From positions 248,001 through 312,000 of the forward strand of contig JAEURR010000003.1 of assembly GCA_016788115.1 (NCBI GenBank): a stretch of 64,000 nucleotides of DNA, written 5' to 3'. Every line of letters starts with the position of its first letter. Within the stretch, counting starts at the first letter, position 1. This document shows, piece after piece, positions 42,124 through 46,601 of the stretch. The stretch is from Chthonomonas sp. Its GTDB lineage: Bacteria > Armatimonadota > Fimbriimonadia > Fimbriimonadales > Fimbriimonadaceae. Under the pieces are notes generated by a model that was not told the origin of the DNA, did not search any database, and saw only the letters and a list, made by a program, of their open reading frames with translations. The translations under genes and the position numbers were made by a program.

Positions 42124-43014
42124 CTAGTAATTTGTGCCAGCAAGTTCGAGGATGCGGCGAGCATATTCTGGCGCGGCGACCTTCACGACCTGGGCATGCC
42201 CGGCGTGGGGAACCACCCAGACCTTCAGCTGGCTCGCGGCCGCCAGGCGATCCGCATTGTCTTGTGGCATGAGGATGTCGTCCTGTGCGTGGATGATCAG
42301 CCCCGGCCGACCACGCCAACTCGCTGCCGCATCAACTGGCCGCACGGTCGATGCTCGGCTCCCCGAGAGCAGCTCTGAAATCCAAAGAACGGGTCGCAGG
42401 ACGATTGAGCCTTTGGGCATCACCAGGTCCAGCCACCGAGCGGAAGTTTCATCCAGTGAAGCAAATGTGCTCTCGCTAACGATCGCGTAGACCTCGTCCT
42501 CTAGGTCTTCAGAAGCCAGCCAGCATGCTGCGGCACCCAAGGAGACCCCAACCAGGACGATCCGAGGTCGAGGGCCAACCTTCTCGCGAACCCACTTGAC
42601 GGTCCCGATGACTTCTTGCGCTTCGGGCCGCCCGAACCCCACTCGGGAGCAAGGATTCTCCCCATGCCCGGCCATCCACGGGAGGACGACGGCTACCGAT
42701 TCGTTGCCGACGAACTCCCGCGCCAGCGCCTGCCAGCTGCGAGGCGAGCCCCCATACCCGTGCACCATCACGAACACGACAGAGCCATCGAACCGGTCTT
42801 GAAGCAGGCTGTCCGACGCAAACACCGGTAGTGCGTACTTTGGGAGAGGGATCGATACGGACGAAACGCCCGCGACTTCGGGTGCACCCCCCGGTGAGCG
42901 ATGCGAAACATAGAACCAAGCCAGCGCGCAGCACGCGCCACCATAGACGGACAGAACGAGTAGGAGAACCCACACGATCTTACGAGACCGACTTTTCCGC
43001 CGCCACCACTGCAT
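42124..43014 (-). CDS. Membrane-anchored alpha/beta hydrolase
   Basis: 296 residues: N-terminal basic stretch and one membrane helix (about 12-35, IVWVLLLVLSVYGGACCALAWF), then an alpha/beta hydrolase fold with VMVHGYGGSPRSW (oxyanion loop), the nucleophile elbow GVSLGA, the Asp in HAQDDILMP and the His in VPHAGHAQV. It probably cuts esters or lipids on the outer side of the inner membrane; the substrate is unknown. The start lies 35 bases inside the end of folD. Confidence 0.85.
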   Translation of the reverse strand: MQWWRRKSRSRKIVWVLLLVLSVYGGACCALAWFYVSHRSPGGAPEVAGVSSVSIPLPKYALPVFASDSLLQDRFDGSVVFVMVHGYGGSPRSWQALAREFVGNESVAVVLPWMAGHGENPCSRVGFGRPEAQEVIGTVKWVREKVGPRPRIVLVGVSLGAAACWLASEDLEDEVYAIVSESTFASLDETSARWLDLVMPKGSIVLRPVLWISELLSGSRASTVRPVDAAASWRGRPGLIIHAQDDILMPQDNADRLAAASQLKVWVVPHAGHAQVVKVAAPEYARRILELAGTNY

Positions 43015-43849
43015 TGCTCAATAGACTCGCGACCGTCATCGGTCCAACACCGCCCGGTACGGGGGTGATCCAGCTTGCCACTTCGACACACGATTCGAAG
43101 TGACAATCCCCGACGTCGGCAGACCGACCTTCGACCTTGTTGTAGCCTGCATCCAGCACGATTGCGCCGGGCTTGATCCAGTCCCCGCGCACCATCTCGG
43201 CGCGACCCACAGCTGCCACGAGCACGTCCGCCGTACGGCAGAGCTCGGGCAATTCCACAGTCTTGGAGTGCGCGATCGTCACCGTGGCATTCTTCTGAAG
43301 CAACATGAGCGCCGCGGGTTTGCCCAGGATGACACTCCGCCCGATCACGACCGCCCGCTTGCCGGTCACATCTAGCCCGTAGTGGTCCAGCATCGCCATC
43401 ATCCCCATTGGCGTTGCGCACCGAAATCCGGGCATGTCGCCGACGAGTCGGCCAAGCGATTGGGGCGTGATGCCATCCACGTCCTTTGTATCGCCCAAAG
43501 CTTCGAGCGCCGCCTCTTCATCCAGGTGCTTTGGGAGCGGATGCTGGATCAACACTCCGTGCACCGCCGGGTCGGCGTTGAGCCCGTGAATGTGGTCGAT
43601 CAGCGCAGTCTGTTCCGAGTGGTCATCCACTTCGTACTGCGTGCTCTCGATTCCGACCTCCTCGCACCATTTGCGCTTCATCCGCACGTACGAGAGGCTA
43701 GCGGGGTCCTGAGATGCGACAACCACATGCAGTCTGGGAGTCACGCCGCGCGCACGCAGCCAATCCACCCGAACTTTGAGCTCGGATCGCACTTGTTTGG
43801 ACAGCGCCTTTCCGTCAAGGACTTTAGCGGTCATCGTTGTCTGAGTCAT
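42980..43849 (-). CDS. folD: Bifunctional methylenetetrahydrofolate dehydrogenase/cyclohydrolase
   Basis: Makes 10-formyl-THF in one-carbon metabolism. 289 residues: KVLDGKALSKQVRSEL, SYVRMKRKWCEEVGI with the catalytic Tyr/Lys pair, the GVLIQHPLPKHL loop, the NADP-binding VVIGRSVILGKPAALMLL and the C-terminal TPVPGGVGPMTVASLL. A second ATG (43832-43834, MTAKVLDG) aligns better with the family start than the first; both lack a strong ribosome site and overlap the end of nusB. Confidence 0.95.
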   Translation of the reverse strand: MTQTTMTAKVLDGKALSKQVRSELKVRVDWLRARGVTPRLHVVVASQDPASLSYVRMKRKWCEEVGIESTQYEVDDHSEQTALIDHIHGLNADPAVHGVLIQHPLPKHLDEEAALEALGDTKDVDGITPQSLGRLVGDMPGFRCATPMGMMAMLDHYGLDVTGKRAVVIGRSVILGKPAALMLLQKNATVTIAHSKTVELPELCRTADVLVAAVGRAEMVRGDWIKPGAIVLDAGYNKVEGRSADVGDCHFESCVEVASWITPVPGGVGPMTVASLLSNAVVAAEKSVS

Positions 43850-44441
43850 TCGTTCGAAGAGTCCACGCGCCCGCCTTTACCATCTCGTCGTACTGCGGAG
43901 TGCCTTCTGCGACGAGCTCTTCCAGTTCTTCGTCGTCCGACGGCACGACGGGTTCATCTTCAGCGACAGGCTCCTCCTCCTCGGGCGCGGACCAATCGGC
44001 CTTGGGCGACTGGAGCAAAAGCTTGGCAAGCAAGCCGTTCACAAAACGCGCGCTCTCGACACTACCGTAGAGCTTGGCCAGCACCACCGCTTCGTTGATC
44101 GTCACCTTGGGCGAGAGCTTCGGCATGAAGAAGAGCTCGTATGCCGCCAAGCGCAGGATCGCCCGGTCCAAGATCGCCACGCGGTACCAGTCCCAACCAG
44201 GAGCTAGGAGCGGGGTGATCTTGTCGTCCAGCATCTGCCTGCGGGTAGCGACGCCAAAGATCGCCGTCTTGATGTACTCCAGCGCTTCTGGGGCGTACGA
44301 CTCGTAGTCCAGTACCACCCGCAGAGCCTCGTCCGGCGGGATCTGACTGATCGTCATGGCGTAGATGCCCTGGATCGCAGCCTCCCGCGAGGCGCGGCGA
44401 CTTCTTACAAGCTTTGTTTCGGATTGCGATGGTTCAGGCAT
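43824..44441 (-). CDS. nusB: Transcription antitermination factor NusB with acidic C-terminal extension
   Basis: 205 residues from the ATG at 44439-44441, which overlaps the accC stop by eight bases; an earlier in-frame start lies inside accC. The NusB helical fold runs to about residue 150 (SRRASREAAIQGIYAM, LDRAILRLAAYELFFMP, KVTINEAVVLAKLYGSVESARFVNGLL, shown here only by these pieces). The last 55 residues are strongly acidic (EEEEPVAEDEPVVPSDDEE) and are absent from common NusB. It works with NusE in rRNA antitermination. Confidence 0.9.
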   Translation of the reverse strand: MPEPSQSETKLVRSRRASREAAIQGIYAMTISQIPPDEALRVVLDYESYAPEALEYIKTAIFGVATRRQMLDDKITPLLAPGWDWYRVAILDRAILRLAAYELFFMPKLSPKVTINEAVVLAKLYGSVESARFVNGLLAKLLLQSPKADWSAPEEEEPVAEDEPVVPSDDEELEELVAEGTPQYDEMVKAGAWTLRTNDSDNDDR

Positions 44442-45798
44442 TTGATGGCACCTCGGCCAGCATCTTGGGCACAAAGGCAGTGTTCACTTGCCCAGAGACG
44501 TAGTCGGGGTGTTCCACCAAGCGGCGCAAGAATGGGATGTTTGTCACGATCCCTTCCACGTGAAATTCGTGAAGTGCGGACCGCAACAAGCGAATAGCAT
44601 CGGCGCGGTCACTACCGGTCACGATTAGCTTGGCGATCATCGGATCGTAGAACGGGCTGATCGAAAAGCCTGCATAGACATGCGTGTCGATGCGAATACC
44701 GCGTCCGCCGGGTGCGTCCCAGCGAGTGATACGGCCCGTGCTCGGCGCGAAGTCCTTGTCGGGGTCTTGAGCGGTAATCCGAGCCTCGATCGAGTGGCCT
44801 TCGAGCGAAACTTGCGCTTGTCGCAATCCTAACTTCTCCCCGGCAGCGATGAGAATCTGCAACTTGACCAAGTCCAGACCGGTTATCTCTTCGGTGACCG
44901 GGTGTTCGACCTGCAGGCGGGTGTTCATTTCCAAGAAGTAGAACGACTTCCCATCCTTGTCGAGCAAGAATTCGACAGTACCCGCGTTGGCATAGCCGAC
45001 AGCGAGCGCGACTCGGACTGCCGCCTCGCCCATCGCCTTGCGAACGCGCGGATCGACCGCGGAACTGGGCGCTTCCTCGACGATCTTCTGGTGCCGCAAA
45101 TTCTGGACTGAGCACTCGCGCTCGCCCAGGTAAACCATGTTCTTGAACTCGTCACCAATGACCTGGATCTCGACGTGGCGCGGCTCGACGACGCACTTCT
45201 CCACGATCATTTCGTCGTTGCCAAAGCTCGCTTGCGCTTCGCTCTGAGCGATTTTCCACAGTTTCGGTAGATCAGACGCCGAATCGACGCGCCGAATCCC
45301 CCGCCCTCCGCCGCCGGCGACTGCCTTAAGCAGCACCGGATAGCCGATCTTCTCCGCAACCTTCATCGCGTCGGCGTCCGTCGCAACCGCGCCCTCGCTC
45401 CCCGGCACAACCGGGCACTTGGAAGCGATCGCGGCCTGCTTGGCTCGCGCTTTGTCGCCCATCGCGCGGATCGCTTCGACGGGCGGACCGATGAACTTCA
45501 CTCCGATGCTTGCAAGCGCATCCGCGAAATTGTCGCGTTCGCTGAAGTAACCGTAACCGGGGTGGACGGCTTCCGCGCCACTGATCTCAACCGCCATAAG
45601 CACGTTTGGCAGGTTCAGGTAGCTATCGCCGTTGGTCGCCTCGCCGACGCAGATTGCTCGATCGGCGATGCGCACGTGGGTCGAATCAGCATCGGCCTTC
45701 GAGTAGATGGCGACCGACTCAATGCCCATCTCGCGGCACGCGCGAATGACCCGACAGGCGATCTCCCCACGATTGGCAATTAAGATTCGTTTGAACAT
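44434..45798 (-). CDS. accC: Biotin carboxylase subunit of acetyl-CoA carboxylase
   Basis: 454 residues. Carboxylates biotin on the carrier protein with ATP and bicarbonate, the first step of fatty acid synthesis. Seen: MFKRILIANRGEIACRVIRA, GYGYFSERDNFADA, the ATP-grasp glycine loop AVAGGGGRGIRRV, MIVEKCVVEPRHVEIQ, FYFLEMNTRLQVEHPVTE and the C-terminal FAPSTGRITRW. All of these are intact. The nearby accB-like protein lacks a biotinylation lysine, so the true carrier must be made elsewhere. Confidence 0.97.
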   Translation of the reverse strand: MFKRILIANRGEIACRVIRACREMGIESVAIYSKADADSTHVRIADRAICVGEATNGDSYLNLPNVLMAVEISGAEAVHPGYGYFSERDNFADALASIGVKFIGPPVEAIRAMGDKARAKQAAIASKCPVVPGSEGAVATDADAMKVAEKIGYPVLLKAVAGGGGRGIRRVDSASDLPKLWKIAQSEAQASFGNDEMIVEKCVVEPRHVEIQVIGDEFKNMVYLGERECSVQNLRHQKIVEEAPSSAVDPRVRKAMGEAAVRVALAVGYANAGTVEFLLDKDGKSFYFLEMNTRLQVEHPVTEEITGLDLVKLQILIAAGEKLGLRQAQVSLEGHSIEARITAQDPDKDFAPSTGRITRWDAPGGRGIRIDTHVYAGFSISPFYDPMIAKLIVTGSDRADAIRLLRSALHEFHVEGIVTNIPFLRRLVEHPDYVSGQVNTAFVPKMLAEVPSNA

Positions 45799-45804
45799 CT
45801 GCGC

Positions 45805-46134
45805 TTAGAACCCCTCGTGCCCCAAATGCTTGCACTGAATCGTCCCTTCGGCCGCATCGTACTTGTAAGGCTTGTGGTCGATCGGACACTCAAAAGTCGC
45901 TTTGGAAAGTCGCAAGACGCTCAAGTCGGTTGGGTTCGTCGCGTCCGGTTCGGAAGTCTTGTAAACCTCCAGGGCCTGGCGGATCGTGCGCAGGTTGCTC
46001 GTGCAAACTTCGTCCTTTGCCCGAGCGATGGACTGGCCGACCACCGTTTCGCCAACTTGGTCTTTCCGTTTGTTCTCGGTCTCGCAGCCTGCCAAACAGG
46101 CGGCCGTAAGCAGGATCAGCGCAGCAACTTTCAT
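45805..46134 (-). CDS. Small lipoprotein with pseudopilin-like helix motif
   Basis: 109 residues with a lipoprotein signal (MKVAALILLTAACLAGC, Cys17) and a soluble part in which CTSNLRTIRQALEVYKTSEP resembles the helix after the membrane segment of GspG/ComGC pseudopilins (NLRTALELYK type). The C-terminal half (KATFECPIDHKPYKYDAAEG) also resembles pseudopilin C-termini. The pilin leader and hydrophobic helix are replaced by a lipobox. It is wedged between the accB-like gene (ATGA overlap) and accC. Function unknown. Confidence 0.75.
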   Translation of the reverse strand: MKVAALILLTAACLAGCETENKRKDQVGETVVGQSIARAKDEVCTSNLRTIRQALEVYKTSEPDATNPTDLSVLRLSKATFECPIDHKPYKYDAAEGTIQCKHLGHEGF

Positions 46135-46544
46135 GAGCTCACCTTCACCTTGGCGAGGACCTGGCCGTACTCCACCGGGTCTCCATCCTTCACCAACACT
46201 TCTACGACCTCACCCTCGGCTTTCGATACGACGTCGTTGTCCAAACCAACCGCCTGGACGACTCCGACGATCGCGCCCGAAGTGACCTTACCGCCGACTT
46301 TCAGCGGCTCGCTCCCGTTCCCGAAGTAACCCACGCACGGGGAGGTGATCTCCTTGGTCAGCGGGCCCATTTCAACGGCGGCATTGGCCTCAGACAAGTC
46401 AAGCGAAGCAGACTCTGGCTCCGCGTCGGGGTCCATAACAGCCGAAAACTTAAACTCGCCCTGGCGCAAGGTTACGGAGCGAAACCCGAACTCGCGAGCG
46501 GTCTTAAGTGCGTGGCGCACCACCTCGGAACCGACTTCAGCCAT
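46131..46544 (-). CDS. Biotin carboxyl carrier-like protein without the biotinyl lysine
   Basis: 137 residues from the ATG at 46542-46544 (MAEVGSEVV). The N-terminus (HALKTAREFGFRSVTLRQGEF) follows the BCCP pattern, then comes an Ala/Glu/Ser linker and a biotinyl/lipoyl domain (about 62-135: TSPCVGYFG, LKVGGKVTSGAIVGVV, EGEVVEVLVKDGDPVEYGQVL). Where BCCP has E-A-M-K-M, this protein has Q-A-V-G-L (97-101): the biotin-accepting lysine is Gly100. The reading was checked against the codons. It cannot carry biotin at that site. In plants, biotin-less BCCP homologues (BADC proteins) inhibit acetyl-CoA carboxylase; a regulatory role here is inference. Confidence 0.85.
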   Translation of the reverse strand: MAEVGSEVVRHALKTAREFGFRSVTLRQGEFKFSAVMDPDAEPESASLDLSEANAAVEMGPLTKEITSPCVGYFGNGSEPLKVGGKVTSGAIVGVVQAVGLDNDVVSKAEGEVVEVLVKDGDPVEYGQVLAKVKVSS

Positions 46545-46601
46545 AGGCGGGAGTGTACCGTCTCCCGAGAGGACCCACCGCAATTCAGGTATTAATGGGC
46601 T

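Follow-up and report, generated by a model that had tools for sequence, protein, structure and literature searches.

A BCCP paralog without its biotinyl lysine that heads the accC operon of Armatimonadota, a probable bacterial counterpart of plant BADC

Plants possess BADC proteins, relatives of BCCP that lack the biotinylation motif and occur alongside a lysine-bearing BCCP and biotin carboxylase (BC) (PMC11926652). Earlier work took BADC as an inhibitor of acetyl-CoA carboxylase (ACC), but BADC helps BC-BCCP assembly, and its structural data have been argued to misfit a pure inhibitor model and to favour a "glue" role; these noncatalytic subunits were presented in 2025 as unique to the plant enzyme (PMC11926652). 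Several bacterial systems offer partial parallels. In BC1 of Chloroflexus aurantiacus, a hairpin ahead of the BCCP core forms the BC tetramer and increases activity even in the absence of that core (PMC11077971), while noncatalytic "glue" (epsilon) subunits are described for actinobacterial acyl-CoA carboxylases (PMC11926652). The N-terminal domain of Escherichia coli AccB autoregulates transcription of accBC (PMC3896788). For a bacterial BCCP without its lysine, our search of the open-access literature found no paper.

The accC operon and its first gene

The window, by which we mean the whole analysed stretch of 64,000 nucleotides from a Chthonomonas sp. (contig C3 of the 2.4-Mb genome G000), carries on its minus strand an operon with the following features:

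46131..46544, minus strand: BCCP paralog without the biotinyl lysine, 137 aa, ATG start, operon head (open reading frame, profile matches, family alignment, AlphaFold2 and PDB match)
46245..46247, minus strand: codon GGT for Gly100, at the position of the biotinyl lysine (sequence and column alignments)
46437..46529, minus strand: predicted N-terminal helix and beta-hairpin, residues 6-36, the BCCP segment outside the biotinyl domain (AlphaFold2; weak alignment to the E. coli BCCP N-terminus in 4hr7)
46140..46358, minus strand: biotinyl-type barrel domain, residues 63-135, with a short thumb (Pfam match, AlphaFold2, PDB match, thumb lengths)
46552..46557, minus strand: TACACT within GGTACACT, a candidate -10 box that precedes the start codon by a few bases (upstream sequences by eye)
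45805..46134, minus strand: small lipoprotein-like ORF, 109 aa, related to pilin-like proteins (place kept in relatives)
44434..45798, minus strand: accC, biotin carboxylase, here AccC1 (profile match)
43824..44474, minus strand: nusB, after accC in the conserved operon (gene order and profile search)
42980..43849, minus strand: folD, after nusB in the conserved operon (conserved order; name from sequence and context)

The first-pass annotation had read the E-A-M-K-M site of the first gene as Q-A-V-G-L, with Gly100 for the lysine, and had placed the gene beside biotin carboxylase. Both statements are borne out. The ORF reads G-V-V-Q-A-V-G-L-D-N-D-V, with Gly100 at the biotinyl lysine position, and the gene heads the accC operon, where one small ORF that overlaps its end by 4 bases separates it from accC. 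By its score to PRK08591 (646 bits, above the cut-off) AccC1 is typical of AccC, and the order of BCCP-like gene, pilin-like ORF, accC, nusB and folD recurs throughout the phylum Armatimonadota.

Retention of the remaining biotinyl fold and of a BCCP-type N-terminus, also part of that earlier reading, agrees with profile and structure predictions. Pfam Biotin_lipoyl covers residues 65-132 at 36.1 bits against a cut-off of 22.1, and AlphaFold2 (mean pLDDT 84) predicts a helix (6-19), a hairpin (23-28/31-36), a low-confidence linker (42-54) and a barrel with a pLDDT of about 95. The closest PDB match of the predicted fold is 1bdo, the biotinyl domain of E. coli ACC (BCCP). To the NCBIfam BCCP model TIGR00531 the protein scores 51.9 bits, below the cut-off of 115.2, which most canonical copies in the phylum also miss at 68-114 bits, and its N-terminal region aligns weakly with that of E. 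coli BCCP (9.7 bits). The biotinyl-type barrel is thus present, as the Pfam score and the 1bdo match indicate, and the lysine of E-x-M-K-M is absent; judged from its sequence, the 137-aa protein is a BCCP paralog without the biotinyl lysine and is unable to carry biotin in the usual way.

Conservation of Gly100 in relatives, which had been left as a check, was found in full: glycine occupies the site in all 30 sequences aligned from this GTDB family (the window protein and 29 relatives, nearly all of different genera, 34-47% identical to it). The usual site block is A-L-G-[LI]-x-N-[DE], and most invariant columns of this alignment fall in the barrel domain. A sequencing error or frameshift at the site is ruled out because all 30 aligned family members have Gly. 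When the genome collection was scanned with a pattern from a subset of the alignment, one narrow enough to say nothing on absence elsewhere, 10 loci were returned, labelled Armatimonadota/Armatimonadetes, Fimbriimonas/Fimbriimonadaceae or Chthonomonas.

The protein might still be a carrier, modified on another lysine or by another group, as a few copies in other families with a lysine one place on would allow. For the window protein this is most improbable, since it has no lysine within 4 residues of the biotinyl site and none near the hairpin tip, and since no conserved lysine takes over from the missing one among the 30 aligned relatives.

Most of the 30 orthologs in the alignment have a GGTANNNT-like box between a few and about 20 bases 5' of their start codon, which suggests a promoter close to the start and a near-leaderless operon mRNA. 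The small ORF is retained between the BCCP-like gene and accC in most relatives. Some of its homologs (L087, L088) begin with a type IV prepilin-like signal, and the window version is lipoprotein-like; AlphaFold2 predicts its structure with confidence (pLDDT 92), and a Foldseek search returned no significant match and some insignificant ones to pilins.

Two BCCP types and their partners across Armatimonadota

At least two matches to the TIGR00531 BCCP model were found in each of the 60 sampled genomes, which represent 29 families. The canonical EAMK copy lies away from accC and has its lysine in all 50 genomes in which the site was read. In the window genome it is found at C6:86908-87339, so that the search for a normal accB proposed in the first-pass annotation has a positive outcome and the idea that the gene is missing from this genome is rejected. 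The other copy, that of the operon, was read in 80 genomes from 29 families, the window not included. It adjoins accC on the upstream side in about 73 of these, the remaining 7 operon-type copies having no adjacent accC within the stretch fetched. Lysine is present at its site in 20/80; the others have Gly (44), Arg (8), His (3), Thr (2), Ser (1), Asp (1) or Asn (1). Copies that read EALGK or EALRK, with the lysine one place later, occur at L172, L173, L175 and L177 (families f41, f43 and f45). At one further locus (L201; G128 C1:5225000-5229000), the canonical accB lies near an AccC of the second type, unlike in the window genome.

The motif V-E-[YF]-G near the C-terminus marks 77 of the 80 operon copies and none of the 50 canonical ones, and a barrel-domain tree from which the site was omitted separates the two types by a single branch (SH-aLRT 94), although with 73 columns only its inner order is untrustworthy. 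The single separating branch together with this marker therefore identifies operon and canonical copies as old paralogs. From domain start to lysine the canonical copies measure exactly 39 residues; in the operon copies a shorter thumb loop mostly reduces this distance to 34. Compared with E. coli-type AccB/BCCP (TIGR00531, 1bdo/4hr7), the window protein shares the fold, the helix-hairpin, the linker, the place before accC and a V-E-[YF] element; it differs in the missing biotinyl lysine, the shorter thumb, a score well below the cut-off and the provision of the carrier from a second gene.

In two reduced 1.5-Mb genomes of the same family (G030 and G159, 97% complete), operon copy, canonical BCCP and AccC1-like gene are all absent, and the only AccC kept is 48-50% identical, a level that matches the second AccC type. 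From this joint absence, the lysine-less protein seems to go together with ACC. Two other genomes (G183 and G253) combine a Gly operon copy with a single AccC, as counted in drafts that are 97-98% complete and in which a second gene could have been missed. The AccC encoded with the lysine-less protein should therefore carboxylate the biotin of the lysine-bearing canonical BCCP in both of them. In the window genome, which also has an AccD-AccA pair and one biotin ligase domain, a second AccC (C8) adjoins an enoyl-CoA hydratase-like gene and has the look of a subunit of a catabolic acyl-CoA carboxylase. We reject it as the ACC enzyme, given this neighbour and the lack of a second AccC in the two Gly lineages.

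Repeated change at the lysine, selection and biotin supply

On an AccC tree of 74 proteins, parsimony, which is blind to the direction of gain or loss, counts at least 11 changes between lysine and non-lysine at the site and 17 residue changes. K, G, S and D all occur within a single family, and other families mix K with R or K with H. As lysine is the ancestral BCCP state, these changes are most naturally read as repeated loss. The loss noted in the first-pass annotation stands, and its extent across the phylum and the seven replacing residues lay beyond the reach of that reading. The operon protein could descend from an ordinary second BCCP, the copies with and without lysine may differ in role, and the quarter of operon copies that have the lysine may still be carriers.

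Should the operon copy be a second BCCP that lost carriage after duplication and is now decaying, kept by its operon position alone, the variety of residues that replace the lysine and the shortened thumb would be accounted for. We regard such relaxation as very unlikely in view of dN/dS values of 0.12-0.36 in pairs of lysine-less copies (Nei-Gojobori, with synonymous sites near saturation in several pairs), of the open frames and invariant columns across the 30 relatives and of the near-universal retention of the gene. A pseudogene is rejected on the same dN/dS, conservation and retention, and by these measures the lysine-less copy is under purifying selection. Since the gene is retained while its lysine is lost, selection preserves something other than biotin carriage.

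A bioB gene scoring above its curated cut-off was found in 5 of the 60 Armatimonadota genomes, and the phylum may for the most part rely on external biotin. The operon lysine is kept in 4/5 genomes with bioB versus 16/55 without (Fisher p 0.038), an association that comprises 2-3 phylogenetically independent pairs only and is therefore not significant, so that a link between lysine loss and biotin auxotrophy is only suggestive.

Probable role in the biotin carboxylase complex

The recurrent loss of the lysine suggests that the protein now helps to build or control ACC rather than to join its chemistry. We consider it probable that the paralog belongs to the biotin carboxylase complex as an assembly subunit without carrier function and is the bacterial equivalent of BADC, with a probably independent origin. 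Made together with AccC from the accC operon and no longer taking biotin, it would most likely bind AccC, and possibly biotinylated BCCP too, through its helix-hairpin and barrel surface. By occupying carrier positions in the BC-BCCP subcomplex it would let the complex assemble or hold together, while the separately encoded EAMK-type BCCP would do the carboxyl transfer; a scaffold that needs no biotin is a possible benefit. We infer both the binding to AccC and canonical BCCP and the assembly role, which is favoured because the lysine can be lost while helix-hairpin, barrel and position ahead of accC persist. The short thumb of most operon copies speaks against it, the plant BADC interface being thought to involve the BCCP thumb, and so do the weak N-terminal alignment to E. 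coli BCCP, the 7 operon-type copies with no adjacent accC and the copies that retain the lysine.

The parallel with BADC drawn in the first-pass annotation is a good one, as the protein is a BCCP homolog without the biotinylation motif that coexists with a lysine-bearing BCCP and, as the single AccC of G183 and G253 indicates, with an AccC that should serve that carrier. Unlike BADC, it is bacterial, is encoded in the accC operon and shows at least 11 changes between lysine and non-lysine within one phylum, and an origin separate from that of the plant protein, by convergence, is presumed and most likely. With BC1 (PDB 8HZ4) it shares a hairpin N-terminal to the biotinyl core, the predicted helix-hairpin lying at the corresponding place; BC1 is a fusion protein with a working EAMKM core, and the hairpins are likened by position, not residue by residue. 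The actinobacterial epsilon subunits, which we set beside the paralog by description only, are noncatalytic assembly subunits of a bacterial biotin carboxylase complex, and they are not known to be relatives of BCCP.

The same annotation had favoured a brake, in which the paralog takes the places of BCCP on AccC, lowers ACC activity and thereby tunes fatty-acid synthesis. The loss is the same as in BADC, for which inhibition was the early model, a lysine-less carrier in the complex would cut the number of active carriers per complex, and the gene is encoded with accC. A permanent brake, co-encoded at the operon head almost throughout the phylum, would, however, be wasteful, and the structural data on BADC argue against a pure inhibitor model (PMC11926652). 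Inhibition of ACC by the paralog is possible and not specifically supported, and we hold it to be unlikely; the constant place at the operon head, the near-universality and the joint absence with AccC1 and canonical BCCP accord better with a constitutive subunit for assembly than with an inhibitor that can be dispensed with.

Regulation, rather improbable in our judgement, would mean that the paralog kept a regulatory role like that of E. coli AccB after a second BCCP took over carriage. Its position as the first gene of the accC operon, the predicted retention of its N-terminal part and the precedent of AccB autoregulation (PMC3896788) are consistent with this, but a well-conserved barrel would then be needless, and no DNA-binding feature was seen in the paralog.

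Beyond an assembly role, we propose, at somewhat less than even confidence, that in Armatimonadota a scaffold dedicated to the heteromeric ACC, free of biotin and derived from BCCP, arose repeatedly when the operon-encoded second BCCP lost its lysine, separately from BADC and possibly to spare biotin in organisms unable to make it. The bacterial system resembles BADC in composition and probably in role. Noncatalytic BCCP-like subunits of ACC have been described as plant-only (PMC11926652), and most sampled Armatimonadota families would have a bacterial counterpart. Annotation may label such genes accB although they carry no biotin at the usual site. The repeated changes at the lysine would provide natural replicates for asking whether such a subunit is glue or brake, through which part BCCP binds AccC and what makes carriage dispensable.
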